Part shown: piece after piece, positions 4,882 through 29,762 of the stretch | Position numbering within the stretch: position 1 is the stretch's first letter | Layout of the letters: every line of letters begins with the position of its first letter | DNA from: Marinomonas aquiplantarum | Lineage (GTDB): Bacteria; Pseudomonadota; Gammaproteobacteria; Pseudomonadales; Marinomonadaceae | DNA: 64,000 nucleotides | Reading direction: 5' to 3' | Assembly: GCF_003314975.1 (NCBI RefSeq) | Contig: NZ_QNRF01000001.1 | Coordinates: forward strand, 248,001-312,000 | The notes under the pieces: model-generated | Databases searched by the model: none | Told to the model about the DNA's origin: nothing | The model's input: only the letters and a program-made list of their open reading frames with translations | Position numbers and translations under genes: made by a program

Positions 4882-5760
4882 GTGACACGTCGCTATATAG
4901 GCCGGTTTGCGCCATCGCCAACCGGTCCGCTTCATTTCGGCTCATTGGTCAGTGCCTTAGCGAGCTATCTGGAAGCCAAACAGCAACGAGGCAAATGGCT
5001 TATTCGCATTGAAGATGTGGATGGTACACGCTGCAAACCCATATTTGCCGAACAAATCCTTACCACTCTGCAAAGCTATCAACTGGTTTCTGACGACAAA
5101 GTCGAAGTACAAAGCCAACACCACCAATCTTATCAAGATCATTTAGAGCAACTAAAACAGCAAGGACAACTCTTCCCTTGCAATTGCACTCGTCAATCCC
5201 TGCAAGTATTCCAAGGCCGACATCCACACATTTGCGATAGTCATACTGACGCCCCGCATTCTTGGCGGTTAAAAAGCAGTGAGCTGATTTATCAATATCA
5301 CGACCCTATTCAGGGGACACTGAGGTTTACCAATGATCTCAAACATACTTGCCCCATTTTAAAACGAAAAGATGGTTACTTTTCCTATCAATTAGCCGTG
5401 GTAGTGGATGATCATAGACAACACATCACTCACCTTGTTCGCGGTGCCGACTTAATCGAAACCACCGCCCAACAACTGCATCTGTATTCACTGTTTAACT
5501 GGACGCCACCAGAACTGTGCCACATCCCCCTCATTGTGAATCAGAGAGGTGACAAGATCAGTAAACAGAATCACGCTAAAGCCATTGTCGATGGCGATAT
5601 CACTACTTTACTGTGTGCCTTGAAGTACCTTGGGCTGCAGATTCAAGCCTCCAGCATTCAAGAGGCCTTAGACCAAGCGATCAAATCATGGGACATAAAA
5701 CGCTTACAAGGACAAAGCGCCCTCCCGATCCAACCACAAGACTGGCACCTCATTCAATAA
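4882..5760 (+). CDS. gluQRS: Glutamyl-Q tRNA(Asp) synthetase
   Basis: A 292-residue truncated paralogue of glutamyl-tRNA synthetase. It has only the catalytic Rossmann domain and lacks the anticodon-binding half. It attaches glutamate to queuosine at position 34 of tRNA(Asp). The HIGH-type signature (FAPSPTGPLHFGSL, residues about 8-21) and the KMSKS-type loop (GDKISKQNHAK, about 229-239) are present. Cysteines in CNCTRQ and HICD fit the zinc site of the family. It starts at GTG 4882, 3 bases after dksA, so it is co-transcribed with it. Confidence 0.93.
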   Translation: MTRRYIGRFAPSPTGPLHFGSLVSALASYLEAKQQRGKWLIRIEDVDGTRCKPIFAEQILTTLQSYQLVSDDKVEVQSQHHQSYQDHLEQLKQQGQLFPCNCTRQSLQVFQGRHPHICDSHTDAPHSWRLKSSELIYQYHDPIQGTLRFTNDLKHTCPILKRKDGYFSYQLAVVVDDHRQHITHLVRGADLIETTAQQLHLYSLFNWTPPELCHIPLIVNQRGDKISKQNHAKAIVDGDITTLLCALKYLGLQIQASSIQEALDQAIKSWDIKRLQGQSALPIQPQDWHLIQ

Positions 5761-5830: not shown

Positions 5831-7252
5831 ATGCACAGCATTATGATTATCTGTCCCGAAAACTCCCTGTTAAAAGAGTCGGAAAGGTGGCTATCAAAAT
5901 ACGGTTTTCAAATTAACACCAGCCAATCTTTTGAGCAGGCCAATAAATATTACGACCTCTCAGCATTCGACTTAATGTTAGTGGATCAGGCCGCTATCGA
6001 ATCATTAGAACACCCTGCTAGCGAGATCCCAGAAACGCCAAAGCACATTGTACTAGATGCCAAACCCAGCCTAAGCACTGGGGTAAACAGCATGGCCGAG
6101 GGTGCGGTTTATTATTTACCCTTACCGACGGATACCGAGACACTCCTCAAGCATGTTGTTAATACGCTTGAACAAAGAGACCAAGAAAAAGCCACAACAA
6201 CGCCTGAGACACTAGCCTCAAACCCGGTATTATTTGCGGCCAGTGAACGCGAAGAAGCCCTTCCTCTTGGCACACCTGGGAGCGGCATCATTGGCCAATG
6301 CCCACCCATGCTGGAGTTATTCAGCGACATGCGCAAAGTGGCGGCAACGGACGTTACGGTATTGATAAGAGGCGAGTCAGGGACAGGTAAAGAACTCGTG
6401 GCCAAAGCACTCCACAACCTAAGCCAACGACACGACTATCCCATTATCAGCGTCAACTGCGCCGCCATCCCTGAAAACTTAATAGAATCAGAGCTTTTCG
6501 GCCATGAAAAAGGCGCTTTCACCGGGGCTACCACGGCGCACGACGGTCTGATCGTAGCGGCAGACAAAGGCACTTTATTTCTGGATGAAATTGGCGAGCT
6601 TCCCCTTGAAGCACAAGCCAGATTACTCAGGGTATTACAAGAAGGTGAGATTCGTCGTGTCGGTGCCACACAATCCACTCACGTGAACATTCGCCTCATT
6701 ACAGCAACCCATAGAAACCTCTTTGAAATGGTCAAAAACGGTCAATTTCGAGAGGATTTATACTATCGCTTGTACGTCATGGAATTGCTGTTACCGCCTT
6801 TACGCGATCGCGGAGAAGACATCTCTATATTGGCGAAAGCCTTATTGGAGAAAACCTGTTTAAAACATCATCGGCCACCCGTTCCCTACAGCAAAACATT
6901 CGACAAAGCGATTCGCTCGCATGACTGGCCAGGCAACGTTCGAGAGCTGGAAAACGCCATAGAGCGAGCCATCATACTAAGCCCTATGGACAGAGTAGAA
7001 GCGGCCAACCTCAAATTGGCCAGCCAACATCACACCAAAGGGAAAAGCTCGCCAGCCTCGACCGAAAGCGACATTAATGCCACGCTTCCAGAAGGCACCA
7101 CCCTTGACGATTACTTTAAACACTTTGTGCTCACGCACCAGCACAAGATGACAGAAACCCAGCTTGCACATTCGTTGGGCATATCACGCAAAAGTTTATG
7201 GGAAAGAAGACAAAAGCTGGCAATACCCAAAAAAGTAACAACCGAAAAGTAA
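5831..7252 (+). CDS. cbrB: CbrB-like sigma-54-dependent activator with a degenerate receiver domain
   Basis: This 473-residue protein has a receiver-like domain (about 1-115), a sigma-54 AAA+ domain and a Fis-type helix-turn-helix. Walker A GESGTGKE is at 181-188 and the sigma-54 contact GAFTGA at 228-233. The C-terminal region (LDDYFKHFVLTHQ..MTETQLAHSLGISRKSLWERRQKL) closely resembles Pseudomonas CbrB as I remember it, and the dksA-gluQRS-X-pcnB position is that of cbrAB. The receiver is unusual. Asp52 (FDLMLVD) is kept, but the acidic pair near residue 9 is replaced (IMIICPEN), and the conserved lysine near residue 98 is missing (YYLPLPT). No histidine kinase is adjacent. It is therefore probably not controlled by a CbrA phosphorelay. 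Ribosome site AAGAGGTG precedes the start. The likely target is the sigma-54 promoter just downstream. Confidence 0.85.
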   Translation: MHSIMIICPENSLLKESERWLSKYGFQINTSQSFEQANKYYDLSAFDLMLVDQAAIESLEHPASEIPETPKHIVLDAKPSLSTGVNSMAEGAVYYLPLPTDTETLLKHVVNTLEQRDQEKATTTPETLASNPVLFAASEREEALPLGTPGSGIIGQCPPMLELFSDMRKVAATDVTVLIRGESGTGKELVAKALHNLSQRHDYPIISVNCAAIPENLIESELFGHEKGAFTGATTAHDGLIVAADKGTLFLDEIGELPLEAQARLLRVLQEGEIRRVGATQSTHVNIRLITATHRNLFEMVKNGQFREDLYYRLYVMELLLPPLRDRGEDISILAKALLEKTCLKHHRPPVPYSKTFDKAIRSHDWPGNVRELENAIERAIILSPMDRVEAANLKLASQHHTKGKSSPASTESDINATLPEGTTLDDYFKHFVLTHQHKMTETQLAHSLGISRKSLWERRQKLAIPKKVTTEK

Positions 7253-7254
7253 CA
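7235..7254 (+). promoter_or_regulatory. Direct GTAACA repeats, possible activator site
   Basis: GTAACA occurs at 7235-7240 and again at 7249-7254, 14 bases apart. They overlap the end of the cbrB-like gene, about 100-115 bases upstream of the -24/-12 promoter, a usual distance for an enhancer-binding protein site. I recall TGTTAC/GTAACA half-sites for Pseudomonas CbrB, but I cannot verify that here. The repeats themselves are seen; their function is inferred. Confidence 0.3.
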
Positions 7255-7349: not shown

Positions 7350-7365
7350 TGGCACAACTAATGCC
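7350..7365 (+). promoter_or_regulatory. Sigma-54 (-24/-12) promoter
   Basis: TGGCACAACTAATGCC matches the sigma-54 consensus TGGCAC-N5-TTGCW with the invariant GG (7351-7352) and GC (7363-7364) at the exact 10-base internal spacing. It lies 98 bases downstream of a sigma-54-dependent activator gene and in front of an A-rich, non-coding stretch. Transcription would start near 7376. A second TGGCAC at 7373 lacks the -12 element. Confidence 0.75.
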
Positions 7366-7375
7366 TTATATATGG

Positions 7376-7664
7376 CACAACGATAATAAGATTGACCAAG
7401 AATAAAAATAAGTTAATCGTCGTATGTTAGGTTCTTAAAAATAAAAATAATAATTAGGAACACCGTGGCCTCTTCAAATAAAAATAAAATTTGAGGCCAT
7501 GGATGGAAAATCGCTTTGGATAATTGATTTTTTTAGATATACAAGCCCTCGGGCGATGAAAACAATGCAAAAATAAAAATAAGACCCAAGTAGAACTGCA
7601 GAAGCAGCACTGACTTTGTTTTCGGAACTAGTATCTTCATGTATCCAAAGCGATTATTTTATTT
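7376..7664 (+). ncRNA. Candidate CrcZ-like Hfq/Crc-sequestering small RNA
   Basis: No coding frame is credible between the cbrB-like gene and pcnB, the place where Pseudomonas encodes CrcZ. Four exact copies of AATAAAAATAA lie at 7401-7411, within 7437-7453, 7476-7490 and 7569-7582. Each reads as A-R-N triplets, the type bound by the distal face of Hfq. The third copy is presented in the loop of a perfect 7-bp hairpin (7466-7472 with 7493-7499). A 14-bp stem pairs 7509-7522 with 7642-7655 and is followed by ATTTTATTTCTTAATT, a plausible 3' end. The start is inferred from the sigma-54 promoter at 7350-7365. The expected length of about 290 nt is shorter than Pseudomonas CrcZ (about 400). Both ends are inferred. 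Confidence 0.65.
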
Positions 7665-7786
7665 CTTAATTCATCTCTTAGATTCCCGATCTTCACCAAT
7701 TTCACTGAAACTGCCTCATAAATCGTGTAACTTTTCGCCATCACGTGTAGAATGCCATTTTCGTTAACTTTTAAATTTGTTGTCTA

Positions 7787-9223
7787 ATGCTTACAGGATT
7801 CAAATCTCTGGTACGTAAAGCCTCTTCTGTGTTCACACCTAACAAAACACAGACTTACCCCATTATCATACCTCGTAAACAACACAGTCTTTCAAGACAG
7901 GACATGAGTCCAAATGCTGTTAAGGTTTTATATCGTCTTAATAAAGCAGGTTACGATGCTTACTTGGTGGGCGGCTGCATACGAGATCACTTGATAAACA
8001 TAGAACCAAAAGACTTTGACGTCGTCACCAATGCCACCCCCGAAGAAGTTCATGCCATCTTTTCCAACTCTCGATTGATCGGTCGACGCTTTCGCTTAGT
8101 CCACGTCACGTTTGGTCGAGAAATTATTGAAGTCTCTACCTTTCGAGCCAATACAGCACAAGAAGAGACACCAAGCCCGAGCGTCACACAGACATCACTG
8201 AAAAACAAAGATTCAGCACGCTCTACTCATGGCATTATTCTGCGCGACAACGTTTATGGCAGCATAGAAGAAGACGCAGAGCGTCGCGACTTCACCTTCA
8301 ATGCTCTTTATTACAATGTTCAAGACTTTAGCATTCACGATTATTGCGGTGGTCTTGCTGACATTAAAAACAAACAAATTCGCATCATCGGGGATCCTAA
8401 GCAACGCTATCAAGAAGACCCTGTCCGTATGCTTCGAGCGATTCGCTTTGCAGGTAAGCTTGGTTTCGACATTGAAGCCAGCACAGCGGCGCCTATTAAA
8501 GAGATGGCGCATTTACTGGATCACATCCCACCCGCACGCCTTTTTGAAGAAGTACTGAAATTACTGGGCAGTGGCAATGGCATTAAAACCTTTGCGCTAC
8601 TGCGAGAATTTGGCCTGTTTCGTTACTTATTTCCAGACACAGACGCAATACTACAAAGTGGCTGGAAACGGGATGACATTGACCCTGAAGCATTCATTCT
8701 GCGCGGCTTAAAAAATACTGACGACCGCATTCAAAGCGGTAAAAGTACCGCACCTTATTTTTTATACGCCATTTTACTGTGGCCAAGTGTCGTTTTAAGA
8801 CACGAAGAATTTCAGGCGCAAGGCATGCCCGTTACACCTGCACTGCATCAAGCCGCCAACATGGTGCTTGATAATCAAGTCGCGTCAACGGCAATTCCAC
8901 GTCGATTCTCAACGCCAATGCGTGAAATTTGGGACATGCAACTCAGACTACCGAAACGCTATGGCAAACGTGCTTTCCAATTATTAGAGCACCCAAGATT
9001 TCGTGCTGGCTTTGATTTCTTACTCATCCGCGAACAAAGCGGCACTGAGCTGAACGACCTTGGCGCTTGGTGGGAAGCATTCCAGCATGGCAACGAGAAC
9101 CAGCAACGAGAACTTATCAAACAAATTGACAGTCGCTCGAATAATGAAGGGCCAAAAAAACGTCGTCCTCGTCGACGCCGTAAAAGCAACGCCCCACAAA
9201 GAGACAGTTCAAGCGATTCATAA
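7787..9223 (+). CDS. pcnB: Poly(A) polymerase I (PcnB)
   Basis: PcnB adds 3' poly(A) tails that promote RNA decay. The 478-residue protein shows the class II nucleotidyltransferase head: LVGGCIRD, then PKDFDVVTNATPEEV with the catalytic aspartates, GRRFRLVHV, and RRDFTFNALYYN. The RNA-binding domain follows, and it ends in an Arg/Lys-rich tail (KKRRPRRRRK) typical of PcnB rather than of CCA-adding enzymes. The order cbrB-sRNA-pcnB-folK matches Pseudomonas. The ATG at 7787 has a weak ribosome site; residue 40 (MSPNAVKVLYRL) is where similarity becomes strong. folK follows after 11 bases. Confidence 0.93.
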   Translation: MLTGFKSLVRKASSVFTPNKTQTYPIIIPRKQHSLSRQDMSPNAVKVLYRLNKAGYDAYLVGGCIRDHLINIEPKDFDVVTNATPEEVHAIFSNSRLIGRRFRLVHVTFGREIIEVSTFRANTAQEETPSPSVTQTSLKNKDSARSTHGIILRDNVYGSIEEDAERRDFTFNALYYNVQDFSIHDYCGGLADIKNKQIRIIGDPKQRYQEDPVRMLRAIRFAGKLGFDIEASTAAPIKEMAHLLDHIPPARLFEEVLKLLGSGNGIKTFALLREFGLFRYLFPDTDAILQSGWKRDDIDPEAFILRGLKNTDDRIQSGKSTAPYFLYAILLWPSVVLRHEEFQAQGMPVTPALHQAANMVLDNQVASTAIPRRFSTPMREIWDMQLRLPKRYGKRAFQLLEHPRFRAGFDFLLIREQSGTELNDLGAWWEAFQHGNENQQRELIKQIDSRSNNEGPKKRRPRRRRKSNAPQRDSSSDS

Positions 9224-9234
9224 GAGACAGGCCG

Positions 9235-9720
9235 ATGATGACAGCTTACATTGGTCTTGGCAGCAATCTTGATCAGCCTCTTGAGCAGATTCGCCAAGCC
9301 ATTCAAACTCTTGCCACAGAGCCGAGTTTGATTCATTTTAGAGTCTCTAAACTCTACGCTAGCAAACCGGTTGGCCCACAAGATCAGCCGGATTATGTGA
9401 ATGCGGTTGCGTCATTCGAAACCTCATTATCTGGCATCAAATTATTGGATTTACTGCAATCCATCGAACAAGATCATCATCGGCGTCGCGAACGCCACTG
9501 GGGACCGCGCACCTTAGATTTAGATCTGTTATTGTATGGCCAAGAGCAGATTGATTTACCAAGATTGACCGTGCCACACCCTTTTATGCTTGAGCGAGGT
9601 TTTGTCATCCAACCTCTTCATGATCTTGCTCCCGATATGCTCTTGGTAAATGGCAAAACCGTTACTGAGCAGTTACACCAACTTGATACCAGCGACTTGG
9701 TTATTATCACAGAAGAATAA
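9235..9720 (+). CDS. folK: 2-amino-4-hydroxy-6-hydroxymethyldihydropteridine pyrophosphokinase (FolK)
   Basis: FolK transfers pyrophosphate from ATP to 6-hydroxymethyl-7,8-dihydropterin in folate synthesis. The 161-residue length is usual. The start AYIGLGSNL and the signature RHWGPRTLDLDLLLYG with its metal-binding DLD are clear, as is the conserved PHPFMLERGFV. The gene begins with tandem ATGs (9235 and 9238). It lies 11 bases after pcnB and 3 bases before panB, so it is part of the pcnB-folK-panB-panC operon. Confidence 0.95.
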   Translation: MMTAYIGLGSNLDQPLEQIRQAIQTLATEPSLIHFRVSKLYASKPVGPQDQPDYVNAVASFETSLSGIKLLDLLQSIEQDHHRRRERHWGPRTLDLDLLLYGQEQIDLPRLTVPHPFMLERGFVIQPLHDLAPDMLLVNGKTVTEQLHQLDTSDLVIITEE

Positions 9721-9723
9721 GAT

Positions 9724-10548
9724 ATGTATTCAGACAACTCACAGAAAAAACTGACCAAACCCGTTACTTTGTCGACACTCAAAAAAATGAAAATCGACAA
9801 AGAAAAAATCACCTGCCTAACCTCATATGATGCCTCCTTCACGAACGTCATGAATGCGGCTGGCGTTGAAACCATCCTAGTGGGTGATTCACTTGGCATG
9901 GTTGTTCAAGGTAAAGACAGCACCTTACCCGTTACCATCGAAGAAATGTGCTATCACACTGCAGCAGTAAAACGTGGCAACACCAATGCCTTCATCATGT
10001 CAGACATGTCTTTCATGAGTTACAGCAAGCCAGAACAAGCATTAGACAATGCCGCCAAGCTGATGCAGGCTGGGGCAAACATGGTTAAGCTAGAAGGCGG
10101 CAGCTGGCTGGCTGATACCATAAAACTGTTAAGCCAACGCGGCATTCCAGTTTGCGCTCATTTAGGTTTAACACCGCAATCTGTTCATAAGCTAGGTGGC
10201 TATAAAGTACAGGGCAAAAGCCAAGACGCCGCGGAACTGTTACTCCAAGAGTCTTTGGATTTAGTGGAAGCTGGCGCCGATATTTTATTGTATGAATGCA
10301 TCCCTACTGAACTTGGCAAAAGCTTAACTGAAGCCGTTCCTGTTCCGACGATCGGCATTGGTGCTGGTCATCATACAGACGGTCAGGTGTTGGTCATGCA
10401 TGACATGCTGGGCATCAACCTAGGCCATGTCCCACGTTTTGTCAAAAATTTCTTAGTGGATGGTCGTAATGTTAGCCAGGCCTTTGAAGCCTATGTCGAC
10501 GAAGTAAAAAGTGCCAGTTTCCCTGGTCCAGAACATGGATTCCAATAA
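9724..10548 (+). CDS. panB: 3-methyl-2-oxobutanoate hydroxymethyltransferase (PanB)
   Basis: PanB makes ketopantoate from 2-oxoisovalerate and methylenetetrahydrofolate, the first committed step of pantothenate synthesis. The protein has 274 residues. Family motifs are clear: [49 protein letters not shown] and [14 protein letters not shown]. Its stop shares one base with the panC start (TAATG), indicating translational coupling. It makes the folate-using step sit directly after folK. Confidence 0.97.
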
Positions 10549-23238: not shown

Positions 23239-24027
23239 ATGCATTCTTTGCTGTCCCGTTTGGCTTTAATAACGAGCTTATTTATTGCCAGTGCAAGCCA
23301 GGCTGCTGCGCTACCCGATCTTCAAGGTCGCACTATTCTGGCCGTTACCGAAAATGCCTACACGCCATTGAACTTTATTGATCCAGAAACGGGCAAAGGC
23401 ATTGGTTGGGAATACGATGCCATGAACGAAATAGGTAAACGCTTGAATGCGAATATTGAATGGCAATTAAGCAGCTGGGACGCCATGATCCAAGCGGTTA
23501 AACAAGGTCTATATGATATCGGTATGGATGGCATTACTATTAATCCTGAACGAGCTCAGCAAATTGATTTCTCCATTCCTTACATGACCTCACAACAATT
23601 CATGTTAGTCAGAGCGGACGAAGACCGATTTACTGACGCCGAAAGTTTTGCCGCTAATGATGACTTACACTTTGGGGCTCAAGCTGGCACCACAAACTTT
23701 TATGTGGCTGTATACGATGTGTTAGATGGCAATGAAGACAACCCTCGCATTACCTTGTTAGAAACCTTTGGCGCTTCTGTACAGGCGTTGAAATCCGGTG
23801 ACGTTGACAGTGTCCTAATGGATGCCACATCGGCACGCGGATACATAGGCGCTAACCCAGGCGCGTTTAAAATTGTCGGCGGCCCACTCGGCACAGAAGA
23901 TTTTGGCTTTATCTTCACTCCAGGTTCTGATTTGGTAGAACCTGTAAATGCAGCGTTACGAAGTATGAAGACGGATGGCACATTAGATGCATTAAACAAG
24001 AAGTGGTTTTTCGACTATAACCAATAA
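23239..24027 (+). CDS. Amino-acid ABC transporter substrate-binding protein
   Basis: A 262-residue periplasmic solute receptor of family 3 (polar amino acids). A signal peptide of about 22 residues ends in ASASQA. The domain begins with [19 protein letters not shown] and includes the family signature [16 protein letters not shown] and [21 protein letters not shown]. The ligand is probably a polar or basic amino acid, but it cannot be specified. The matching permease is 114 bases downstream; no ATPase gene is present in this cluster. Confidence 0.88.
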
Positions 24028-27657: not shown

Positions 27658-28071
27658 TTCATCCTAGTTAACCTAGAGCCAAACCCGTGTATATAAAGGG
27701 CTTAAACAGATTGGCATTATTTATTTTTATACCGGTAAACCGGCTGCTTTTAGGTTTGTACGACGTAATTGGTAATCGTGAATTTACCCAGCGAATCGTC
27801 GAAAGCAGAATCTTAGGAGTGAATTTGAACGCGAACCAGCAAAATAAAAATGGCCTCAGATATCATTTTTTTTATGCCTGAAAAATGGCAAAAATGACCC
27901 ATAAAATTTATAGGGTCTTAGGTGAATTTTTTATTGCTTCTCAGTTTGGAAGAGATTCATAACAATGTTTTCCGCAACAAAACCATTAAGACAAACCAAC
28001 GAGATTTGATCTTCGTTAGTGGCCGATGAATGTCTTAACAATAAAATAAAAATAAAAGAGAGAATCGCAAT
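27658..28071. promoter_or_regulatory. Divergent dddD/dddT regulatory region
   Basis: No gene is supported here. It should contain the divergent promoters and the DddR site, but I cannot point to a convincing T-N11-A operator. Visible structure: on the minus strand TATAAAAATAAATAATG (27715-27731) in the dddD leader; on the plus strand a 10-bp-armed hairpin GACCC-ATAAA / TTTAT-AGGGTC (27896-27917) followed by a T-rich stretch; and the A-rich element AATAAAATAAAAATAAAAG (28040-28058), which contains the exact 11-mer repeated in the sRNA at 7.4-7.6 kb. Confidence 0.55.
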
Positions 28072-28182
28072 ATGAAACACACAATGCACTCTTGTCTCAT
28101 CTACGCAAAACAGCCCAGGCAGGCTGAATTTACTTTGCAATTGTCAAAGCATAACAACGCGCAGACGGGGTCAATACTATGA
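28072..28182 (+). CDS. 36-codon leader ORF translationally coupled to dddT
   Basis: The frame starts at ATG 28072, with AGAGAG about 8 bases upstream, and stops at TGA 28180-28182, overlapping the dddT ATG as ATGA. The peptide starts MKHTMHSCLIYAKQPRQ and ends NNAQTGSIL. I do not recognise it. The 4-base overlap suggests that ribosomes ending here reinitiate at dddT, whose own ribosome site (ACGGGG) is poor. The A-rich element at 28040-28058 lies directly before its ribosome site. It could be a chance frame. Confidence 0.4.
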   Translation: MKHTMHSCLIYAKQPRQAEFTLQLSKHNNAQTGSIL

Positions 28183-29762
28183 ATAACAAATCTTATGTCC
28201 TTCCAAAAACAGGTGTTTTTTCAGGTACTCACCCAATATTAGCCGTTGGTTCTGCTCTGCTGGTGACCTTGTTTGTCTTGTTCACCGTCTTCGATCCAAC
28301 CTTAGCAAACAGTCTTTACAGCTCAGCCAATAGCTATATCTCGTCTAATCTAGATTGGTATTACATTGGTTTAATTAGTTTTTTCCTATTTTTCGCGGTT
28401 TGGATCAGTTTTAGCCCATACGGTGACATTCGCCTTGGAAAAGATTCAGATCGTCCAGAATTCAGCAATTATGCCTGGTTCTCCATGCTGTTCAGCGCCG
28501 GTATTGGCATTGGCATTCTATTTTGGAGTATTGCCGAACCCATTTATCACTTACAAAGCAACCCTCTAATCACTGAGTCTCAGCAGAACGGCGTTGAGGC
28601 AGCGCAAGTCGCTATGCGTATCGCGATTTTCCATTGGGGCCTTCACGGCTGGGGATTGTTTGCTGTGATTGGTTTGGCCTTGGCGTATTTTTCCTACCGA
28701 AAAGGTCTGCCACTTTCCATTCGATCTAGCTTACATCCCATCTTTGGTGACCGAATCTATGGACCAATTGGTCACGCCGCGGATTTGCTAGCGGTATTCG
28801 GTACTGTATTTGGTATTGCCACTTCTCTAGGTTTAGGCGCGCAGCAGATGAACGCGGGTCTGTCTTATTTGTTTGGTATCGAAATTTCGACGACCAACCA
28901 AATTGTCCTCATTGCCATCTTGTCGGTGATTGCAACAGGCTCGGTTTTAACTGGCCTAAATAAAGGTATCAAGATCTTAAGTGAGTGGAATATGCACTTA
29001 ACCATCGTGATCCTTTTGCTGTTCATTGTCTTTGGACCAACGGTTTATGTATTAGGCGCGTTTATTACTAACTTGGGTGATTATGTTGCCAACGTCGTTG
29101 AGCTAGGTTTCTGGGTCGATCCAGATCCAAAAGGTCAATGGCAAGGTTGGTGGACGATTTTCTACTGGGGTTGGTGGATCGCTTGGGCACCTTTCTGCGG
29201 TATCTTCATCGCGCGTATCTCTAAAGGCCGTACCATTCGTGAATTCGTCTTCGGTGTGTTAATTGCACCAACGCTATTGGCCGCTTTCTGGATTTCTATT
29301 TTTGGTAACACAGCGATGTTTGTTGAGTTGTTTGGCGCAGGCGGCATCACTGAAGCCGTGAATGCCGACACCACCATGGCATTGTTCACGACCATTGAAA
29401 GCATGAACGCAGGGGATATTGTCACCATCATTATTTCCAGCCTGTGTACCTTGATGCTCGTGACTTACTTTGTTACCTCTGCGGACTCCGCCACTCTAGT
29501 TATTTGTACTATTGTGTCTTTTGGTGATGAACATCCACCAGCAAAATTCAGAGTCTTTTGGGGCGCGGCCATCGGTGCTGTTGCCGCAGTACTTCTCTAT
29601 GCTGGCGGATTGAAAGCCTTGCAAACAGCGTCCATCGTCGCCGCTCTGCCTTTCTCTTTCATCGTCATTATGGCGGCTTACGGACTGGTTAAATCGCTAA
29701 AAGAAGAGATCCGAAACAGTCAGGATGAACAACTGAAACCCTCAACGGAAGGAAAGTCTTAA
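28179..29762 (+). CDS. dddT: BCCT-family DMSP/betaine transporter DddT
   Basis: A 527-residue sodium- or proton-coupled uptake carrier of the betaine-choline-carnitine family, with about 12 membrane segments. The family signature is seen in the FYWGWWIAWAPFCGIFIARISKGRTIREFV stretch (about 328-357), which contains the Trp-rich substrate box. SADSATLVI is also typical. In the DMSP context it imports DMSP; glycine betaine is a structural analogue it may share. It is the first gene of dddT-dddB-dddC and is divergent from dddD. Two hairpins follow before dddB. Confidence 0.93.
   Translation: MNNKSYVLPKTGVFSGTHPILAVGSALLVTLFVLFTVFDPTLANSLYSSANSYISSNLDWYYIGLISFFLFFAVWISFSPYGDIRLGKDSDRPEFSNYAWFSMLFSAGIGIGILFWSIAEPIYHLQSNPLITESQQNGVEAAQVAMRIAIFHWGLHGWGLFAVIGLALAYFSYRKGLPLSIRSSLHPIFGDRIYGPIGHAADLLAVFGTVFGIATSLGLGAQQMNAGLSYLFGIEISTTNQIVLIAILSVIATGSVLTGLNKGIKILSEWNMHLTIVILLLFIVFGPTVYVLGAFITNLGDYVANVVELGFWVDPDPKGQWQGWWTIFYWGWWIAWAPFCGIFIARISKGRTIREFVFGVLIAPTLLAAFWISIFGNTAMFVELFGAGGITEAVNADTTMALFTTIESMNAGDIVTIIISSLCTLMLVTYFVTSADSATLVICTIVSFGDEHPPAKFRVFWGAAIGAVAAVLLYAGGLKALQTASIVAALPFSFIVIMAAYGLVKSLKEEIRNSQDEQLKPSTEGKS

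Follow-up and report, generated by a model that had tools for sequence, protein, structure and literature searches.

A predicted CrcZ-like decoy RNA for Hfq and Crc between cbrB and pcnB in Marinomonas

The analyzed window, a stretch of 64,000 nucleotides from Marinomonas aquiplantarum, contains the gene order dksA, gluQ-like, cbrB-like, candidate RNA and pcnB, followed by folK-, panB- and panC-like open reading frames (the latter three named from reading their translations). The gluQ-like gene (4882-5760, + strand) is the upstream neighbor of a CbrB ortholog (5831-7252, +) with no cbrA between them; the 473-aa product is an AAA+ sigma-54 activator with a degenerate receiver. The downstream neighbor, pcnB, encodes poly(A) polymerase (7787-9223, +). 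An earlier note on this DNA had described the gap between cbrB and pcnB as holding a correctly spaced sigma-54 promoter and no gene, and both statements are borne out. The promoter TGGCACAACTAATGC lies at 7350-7364 (+), and its GG-N10-GC element places the predicted RNA start at about 7376; the open reading frames of at least 20 aa that overlap the gap measure 24-49 aa, plus one antisense frame of 71 aa that is situated mostly inside cbrB, and none of them makes a fitting gene. The promoter site by itself is not rare, as TGGCAC-N6-TGC has two matches in the window against 0.83 expected. A second sigma-54-like match (23976-23990, +) lies in coding-like sequence with no A-rich block after it, and is probably due to chance. 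The predicted CrcZ-like RNA spans 7376-7664 (+). Its 5' end is taken from the promoter, and its 3' end is a guess, because no canonical intrinsic terminator was found between 7200 and 7850.

Exact copies of AATAAAAATAA start at 7401, 7440, 7477 and 7572 (+) in this gap, as the earlier note had counted them. The whole window has only one more, at 28045 (+); dinucleotide shuffles of the window contain 0.07 copies on average, and 0 of 100 reach five. Counting both strands, the 64-kb window has only eight blocks that read (AAn)3AA or more, and four of them are within the candidate RNA. The consensus of the CA motif is AAnAAnAA, to which AATAAAAATAA conforms. Its letters, AAT-AAA-AAT-AA, are a run of A-A-N steps, and such a run obeys the A-R-N rule that PMC4063720 gives for binding to the distal face of Hfq. 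The opinion of the earlier note that the motif departs from the Pseudomonas type was thus wrong.

Upstream of the promoter, the locus carries putative binding sites for CbrB. In P. putida, CbrB binds the subsites TGTTAC and GTAACA upstream of crcZ, with 20-25 bp between subsite centers, according to the relevant section of PMC6296734. By this definition the window has an R-type subsite GTAACA inside the end of cbrB (7235-7240, +) and a second one across the cbrB stop codon (7249-7254, +), 14 bp apart. We counted perfect subsites between -220 and -20 of the promoter, where mononucleotide shuffles expect 0.06-0.14 per locus. At least one is present in 28/28 Marinomonas loci (two or more in 27), in 28/28 Pseudomonadaceae, in both Cobetia and in all 14 other named loci with CbrA. 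In the sample of the order described below, the same holds for 43/43 loci with CbrA and CbrB, for 12/12 with CbrB alone, and for three of four without CbrB at the locus, two of these four ending at contig ends; among the Kushneria loci, which lack CbrB, one in six has a subsite. Left out of this count were 21 of the 80 order loci, in which no TGGCA-N7-TGC promoter is followed by two or more blocks, and three named loci at contig ends (L068, L074 and L107). Since the first Marinomonas subsite lies in coding sequence, part of its conservation may reflect the protein; the second, which all six loci inspected possess, overlaps the cbrB stop or lies after it.

The activator itself is recognized as a CbrB ortholog by its position, its AAA+ domain (PF00158, 240 bits) and the upstream subsites. 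What is absent is its kinase. With CbrA of P. luteola as query, no CbrA ortholog occurs among the matches listed in 48 Marinomonas genomes, an ortholog being defined as an SLC5-PAS-kinase protein of about 980 aa with at least 43% identity over its length. The best listed matches are partial, with 27-32% identity in 47 genomes and less in a genome that is 77% complete. CbrA orthologs at the cbrB locus outside Pseudomonadaceae reach 43-53% over most of their length. The best match in the host genome is a 1147-aa SLC5-kinase protein with a receiver-like C-terminal end, which we take for a CrbS-type protein by comparison with the CrbS architecture outlined in parts of PMC5715377.

The receiver of CbrB has changed along with the kinase. 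We read five letters of it, i.e. the acidic pair, the Asp, the Thr/Ser and the Lys. They are [E/D]DDTK in all 96 CbrB proteins encoded beside CbrA (86/86 and a further 10/10), and xPDDL in 28/28 Marinomonas proteins (window plus 27 named), in which the Asp is kept and the acidic pair, the Thr/Ser and the Lys are lost. At a threshold of 0.001, Pfam Response_reg is not matched in CbrB of the window or of another Marinomonas locus (L060); it is matched in CbrB of Motiliproteus and Cobetia. Other CbrA-less lineages deviate in their own ways: two Cobetia read EKDAK, all six loci of family f13 TDEVK, and one locus of family f36 EP-SY, while the five loci of family f11 read EDETK (two) or EGDSS (two) or have no receiver (one). 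In the last case (L193), CbrB begins just before the AAA+ domain, so that the receiver is wholly missing. Genome-wide searches returned no CbrA match at 1e-30 in 6/6 f11 genomes, and only partial ones of 29-35% in 6/6 f13 genomes, in G114, in two Cobetia and one Kushneria, and in G079 and G158; the positive controls of these searches, G080 and G109, gave full-length CbrA at 52% and 44%. The sole exception to the association of kinase and receiver is a locus of family f38 (L184, genome G114), which has an intact receiver and no CbrA ortholog found; this locus has only one (AAn)3AA block. Two loci were left out of the receiver counts, namely L180 (f36; a 42% CbrB match, a 60-base gap and no CbrA) and L068 (intact receiver; the contig ends before cbrA). 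A quick tree of CbrB without the receiver (88 rows) implies six changes in the presence of CbrA, at least three of which are forced by well-supported branches; as some branches are long (L200, L201) and many forks are poorly supported, we claim only "at least three".

Because CbrA is gone and the receiver lacks the residues for ordinary phosphorylation, the output of the Marinomonas RNA is presumably set by another input. This could be the level of CbrB, another ligand or partner of its receiver, or the supply of sigma-54 or IHF. For P. putida, one passage of PMC6296734 calls CbrB "barely dependent on phosphorylation". Another histidine kinase might nevertheless phosphorylate CbrB in Marinomonas, a sub-case of the decoy reading developed below that differs in the input alone. 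The phospho-acceptor Asp position is kept in 28/28 Marinomonas proteins, and the host has other kinases, including the 1147-aa CrbS-like protein; but with the acidic pair and the Lys lost in the same 28 proteins, and with the Response_reg model unmatched in the two proteins named above, we give this input an outside chance.

Within the genus, the locus is highly conserved. We compared 57 regions upstream of pcnB, i.e. those of the best 30 of 48 genus genomes (host included) and of 27 named Marinomonas loci; they comprise 36 distinct sequences, since 21 named ones duplicate others, and pcnB of the window is 98% identical to that of Marinomonas sp. TW1. All 57 keep TGGCA-N7-TGC, followed within 330 nt by exactly four blocks of (AAn)3AA or longer. 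The number of blocks is thus fixed at four while the spacers vary. The earlier note had held that its reading would fall if promoter and repeats were not conserved in related genomes; the comparison was run and gave the opposite result. Over 27 gaps (the window and 26 named), column identity is 0.944 for 7376-7664 and 0.941 for the promoter, against 0.776 before the promoter, 0.705 for 7665-7786 and 0.34 for 7673-7692. Long invariant stretches also occur outside the blocks, in the 3' domain. The blocks are strand-biased: 28 Marinomonas gaps have on average 4.07 in sense, 0.36 in antisense and 0.45 after shuffling.

The predicted fold displays these blocks. Its minimum free energy is -75.5 kcal/mol (z -6.1), a value as low as which was found in 0/200 shuffles; the reverse strand, too, is predicted to be more stable than its shuffled versions (z -3.7). 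On the + strand, hairpin 1 (7377-7427) presents block 1 (7398-7411) in its loop (7397-7411), hairpin 2 (7431-7461) presents most of block 2 (7437-7453; loop 7439-7453), and hairpin 3 (7463-7502) presents block 3 (7477-7487; loop 7473-7492). They are followed by a 3' domain (7503-7662) that is closed by a long stem and holds block 4 (7569-7582) in an internal loop. The closing element is the 14-bp long-range stem seen in the earlier note, 7509-7522 with 7642-7655. Where that note had the motif in a hairpin loop once, the minimum-energy structure places blocks 1 and 3 and 15 of the 17 bases of block 2 in hairpin loops and the fourth in an internal loop. In the ensemble, the unpaired fractions of blocks 1 to 4 are 0.98, 0.81, 0.93 and 0.97, compared with 0.32 for the bases outside the blocks (0.43 if only A is counted). 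Ten further loci (one from Marinomonas, nine from other lineages) were folded, and most, though not all, of their blocks are unpaired.

The covariation analysis of relatives' gaps that the earlier note had proposed gives additional support for this structure. RNAalifold predicts 75 pairs on a 36-sequence alignment. Over 35 distinct rows, 99.5% of the cells are paired, against 37-45% in slid controls, and seven of the 75 pairs show compensatory changes on both sides. Six of these seven are in hairpins 1-3: hairpin 2 contains compensatory changes, and two pairs of hairpin 3 have 12 and 16 both-side changes. On four of five measures the observed value exceeds that of all 500 shuffles; on the fifth, further pair types, 99 of the 500 equal or exceed it. 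The 3' half, including the long 3' stem, hardly varies, and covariation there cannot probe the pairing.

Alternatively, the region could be mainly the 5' leader of pcnB: read-through from the sigma-54 promoter would produce an A-rich, structured leader that controls pcnB via Hfq. The lack of a canonical terminator between 7200 and 7850 agrees with this. So does the presence of pcnB downstream in all loci, but this is so by construction, because the loci were fetched by pcnB. Conservation falls right after 7664, to the values of 0.705 and 0.34 given above, no block lies between -60 and +3 of the pcnB start in 27/27 named Marinomonas loci, and four spaced, loop-displayed blocks fit a decoy better than a single leader. 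We rejected the pcnB-leader reading on the drop in conservation past the RNA and the absence of blocks at the pcnB start, and regard it as improbable.

A decoy would require competing sites elsewhere, and the same motif indeed recurs at the starts of other genes. The host genome contains 42 copies of AATAAAAATAA, while about four are predicted from the window shuffles. We read 30 loci, of which four are in the candidate RNA, leaving 26. In 14 of these 26, an ATG or GTG with an SD-like string follows 20-36 nt past the motif start (open reading frames of at least 30 codons); the identical rule on the opposite strand gives 0/26. Without the SD rule the figures are 16 in sense and 2 in opposite orientation, and 17 versus 6 when TTG is also allowed. 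A looser count (three start codons, frames of at least 100 codons, -15 to +60) shows only a weak contrast, 12/30 in sense and 6/30 in antisense. As AATAAAAATAA reads the same backwards, a reversed-pattern control of the genome search is uninformative. In two loci (L212, L238) a longer reading frame would place the motif inside the gene, and in a third (L234) it is also within an upstream frame of 121 aa.

Pfam supports nine products among the 14: an L-rhamnose mutarotase-FGGY kinase frame, an aldehyde dehydrogenase, an SDR enzyme, a GntR-aminotransferase regulator, a thioesterase, a GFO/IDH/MocA oxidoreductase, a FadB-type enoyl-CoA hydratase-3-hydroxyacyl-CoA dehydrogenase, an FAD-binding-3 protein and a DUF4212 protein. 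For a DctP protein, the motif is 50 nt before the start. The fifth copy in the window (28045-28055, +) is likewise a candidate Hfq/Crc target. It precedes the SD-like string of a 36-codon frame whose end runs into the beginning of the gene for a BCCT transporter, and 28045-28183 (+) is possibly an Hfq/Crc-controlled leader with translational coupling to that gene. Two other copies (L230, L232) stand ahead of very short frames (44 and 38 codons), which may encode leader peptides, as may the 36-codon frame at BCCT. In fadB, a (AAn)3AA block adjoins the SD in 30/30 species read (46 genomes with a match), with the exact AATAAAAATAA in 23, and the sequence ahead of the block changes freely between species. 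A block near a start is not specific alone, since the panB starts of the 27 named Marinomonas loci also carry them, (AAn)2AA in 24/27 and (AAn)3AA in 14/27, and for fadB it is therefore the placement and the conservation of the block that carry the argument. At the starts of seven other genes around pcnB, (AAn)3AA was seen in 0-2 of 27 loci. The (AAn)2AA-or-longer blocks before panB (window 9664-9726; L039-L064 and L066) may belong to the end of folK or mark a further target.

These sites bear on another explanation, in which the transcript is an Hfq-bound sRNA that base-pairs with mRNAs and the A-rich blocks are merely loading sites for Hfq. The long invariant stretches in the 3' domain would suit such a role. 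The constancy of four blocks in 57/57 regions with variable spacers would not, and the return of the motif where catabolic genes begin suggests that all these sites compete for a single protein; we therefore consider base-pairing quite unlikely as the main function. That the gap is a functionless A-rich spacer can be dismissed: A-rich words are common here (42 copies of AATAAAAATAA against about four predicted), but conservation, strand bias and covariation leave this idea a negligible chance.

The host also possesses the proteins on which a decoy would act. Its genome contains hfq, and the encoded protein (L119:1483-1728) matches the best PDB chain, 1u1s, over 78 residues, the differences being F for Y25, positions 5 and 14, and the tail. 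The chain 1u1s is Hfq of P. aeruginosa. In that species Y25 belongs to the distal face, and its replacement by D prevents Hfq from binding CrcZ (PMC4063720). A crc homolog, the presence of which the earlier note had wished to see checked, was found as well. The host has three Exo_endo_phos (PF03372) proteins, one of which is ExoIII; another, of 258 aa, is encoded by a gene that adjoins a pyrE-like frame. In Pseudomonas, crc is located beside pyrE. The 258-aa protein has two PDB chains called Crc as its best matches (2.3e-76 and 3.4e-76), followed by 2myi (3.7e-75), a chain called exodeoxyribonuclease III, and then by nucleases at 4.2e-61. As in the Crc chain, LQD is present and the Asp of the nuclease motif GDxN is absent; SDHAP is kept where the Crc chain reads SQHAP. 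Because the Crc family is close to nucleases and SDHAP is kept, we derive the Crc role from gene position and best match. Among 61 genomes of the order (host included), a crc-like protein has at least 38% identity in 53 and 28-30% in three; none was found in five.

Taken together, we estimate a probability of roughly 0.85 that the region encodes a CrcZ-like decoy RNA for Hfq/Crc, the positional counterpart of Pseudomonas CrcZ. The evidence is of the sequence level: promoter, motifs, predicted structure, conservation, partner genes and CbrB-type sites, together with the absence of CbrA, the receiver change and the candidate targets. The CrcZ-like reading of the earlier note is supported by position, promoter class, A-A-N motifs, partners and the 57/57 conservation, and was even understated; that note had not noticed the missing cbrA, the degenerate CbrB receiver or the wide occurrence of the arrangement across the order. 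According to this model, an RNA of about 290 nt would be transcribed by sigma-54 RNA polymerase under the control of the neighboring CbrB, and its four loop-displayed A-A-N blocks would be occupied by Hfq, through its distal face, along with Crc. When abundant, the RNA would draw Hfq/Crc off similar motifs at the ribosome-binding sites of catabolic and transport genes, such as fadB, the rhaM-kinase frame and the genes for the GFO/IDH/MocA oxidoreductase, aldehyde dehydrogenase, BCCT and DUF4212 proteins, and this withdrawal would release their translation. For the Marinomonas RNA, we infer transcription, Hfq/Crc binding, de-repression and a CbrA-independent input. Several observations weigh against the model: the low Rfam score given below, the lack of a canonical terminator, the stable fold of the reverse strand, F in place of Y25 in Hfq, the kinship of Crc with nucleases, the one covariation measure that shuffles often reach, and the blocks at panB starts.

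The arrangement is not confined to Marinomonas. A first set of 80 pcnB loci was picked by similarity; at least three blocks are present in 45/45 named non-Marinomonas loci with CbrB and in 6/6 Kushneria loci, and two loci at contig ends have five (L074) and one (L107). A family sample then comprised 60 upstream regions of 40 families, taken from 155 genomes of the order over 43 families, and 20 further regions were added, several of them chosen to follow CbrA-less families (80 in total). In the first 60 regions, CbrB is present in 48, and 39 of those have at least three blocks. Over all 80, regions with CbrB have at least three blocks in 49/68 and at least two in 58/68; without CbrB, at least three occur in 2/10, both of family f33, and two more loci are at contig ends. 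By family, CbrB is found in 34/40, CbrB and at least three blocks (in at least one locus) in 28/40, and CbrA in addition in 26/40. Antisense means are 0 to 0.36 blocks in all groups. Six loci show no (AAn)3AA block despite matches to CbrA and CbrB (L141 and L206 of f8, L151 of f16, L185 of f39, L199 and L201 of f38); the RNA may have been lost or moved there, or have another form.

The Kushneria loci (L071, L075, L078, L082, L084, L086) combine the promoter and five or six blocks with the lack of cbrB between gluQ and pcnB. In two genomes related to Kushneria (L172, L174), the promoter and the RNA likewise persist although cbrB is missing from the locus. Searches with Cobetia CbrB in the genomes of L071, L078 and L086, in G079 and in G158 gave near-full-length matches of at most 45%, and of at most 51% for the ATPase domain alone, a level which other activators also reach (52% in G109, 54% in the host genome); the CbrB that G109 keeps at its pcnB locus is 62% identical to that of Cobetia. 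The CbrA search covered two Kushneria-type genomes (that of L071, and G079, whose promoter letters equal those of L071) and G158.

We lean towards the view that the CbrB-CrcZ circuit is ancestral to the whole order and that its input has been severed repeatedly. On this hypothesis, the kinase was lost and the CbrB receiver decayed in Marinomonas, in Cobetia and in at least two further families; the receiver itself was lost once, and its Asp became Glu in one family and part of another. CbrB would now be a one-component or level-controlled activator which still drives an Hfq decoy, and in Kushneria, without CbrB and its sites, some other sigma-54 activator would drive the RNA. What is new is the occurrence of CbrB with a decoy-type RNA beyond Pseudomonadaceae, the repeated loss of the phosphorelay input with the output RNA kept, and the retention of promoter and RNA in Kushneria, where CbrA, CbrB and nearly all CbrB subsites are missing. 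If this is true, carbon catabolite control by decoy RNA and Hfq/Crc would be general in a large bacterial order, much CrcZ-type control would be missed by the public RNA model, and the CbrA-less lineages and CbrB-less Kushneria would represent natural deletion experiments on the signal that sets CrcZ and on the need for CbrB phosphorylation.

PMC8871633 restricts CbrAB to the Pseudomonadaceae and names Pseudomonas and Azotobacter as its only hosts, and PMC6296734 likewise limits it to these two genera. In the open-licence literature, we found no report of CrcZ in Marinomonas, Oceanospirillales or Cellvibrionales (earlier priority is possible), none on CrcZ-Hfq in Halomonas or CbrA/CbrB in Halomonadaceae, and none on CrcZ with Rfam and Pseudomonadaceae; for CbrB in Marinomonas, only papers on unrelated matters were found. 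The Rfam model of CrcZ (RF01675) does not recognize the Marinomonas RNA, which scores 12.4 and 11.3 bits against a cut-off of 95, and there is no gathering hit in the window; across the window, and in the gap under permissive settings, no Rfam family passed its threshold. Over the host assembly, the model has nine weak hits, none above the cut-off or at the RNA locus, and as it also rings in 9 of 14 control genomes, this search carries no information. Among twelve sources, four pass with 139.6-351.5 bits (P. cichorii, P. luteola, Stutzerimonas, Halopseudomonas), and eight fail: Motiliproteus, Terasakiispira, Gilvimarinus, Microbulbifer, Cobetia, Kushneria, Marinomonas (L060) and a MAG (L087). 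In Stutzerimonas (L080:4793-4854), the Rfam P36 sRNA has a hit between cbrB and CrcZ.

Among the traits of CrcZ as a functional kind are several (A-R-N)n repeats with n of at least 4, and four blocks of (AAn)3AA or longer are found in 57/57 Marinomonas regions. With Pseudomonas CrcZ, the RNA shares the position between cbrB and pcnB, the sigma-54 promoter, the CbrB-type subsites, several A-R-N blocks and the accompanying hfq and crc. Unlike it, the Marinomonas RNA has four blocks rich in AATAAAAATAA, a length of about 290 nt as against a model of 398 positions, and no CbrA; CrcZ of P. aeruginosa has six A-R-N blocks, as a portion of PMC4063720 reports. With the CbrA/CbrB system, Marinomonas has the CbrB ortholog in common, whereas its receiver is without the acidic pair and Lys and no CbrA ortholog was found. 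The RNA is thus not a member of the Rfam CrcZ family by score, but its position, promoter and motif, the activator sites and the partner genes lead us to expect that it works in a CrcZ-like manner. CrcY and CrcX of Pseudomonas follow the same decoy logic at other loci; CsrB and RsmZ differ in the protein, CsrA or RsmA, and in the motif, GGA. CrcY is named in the section of PMC6296734 concerned, and a comparison drawn in part of PMC4063720 sets CrcZ beside CsrB and RsmZ, which likewise titrate a translational repressor.
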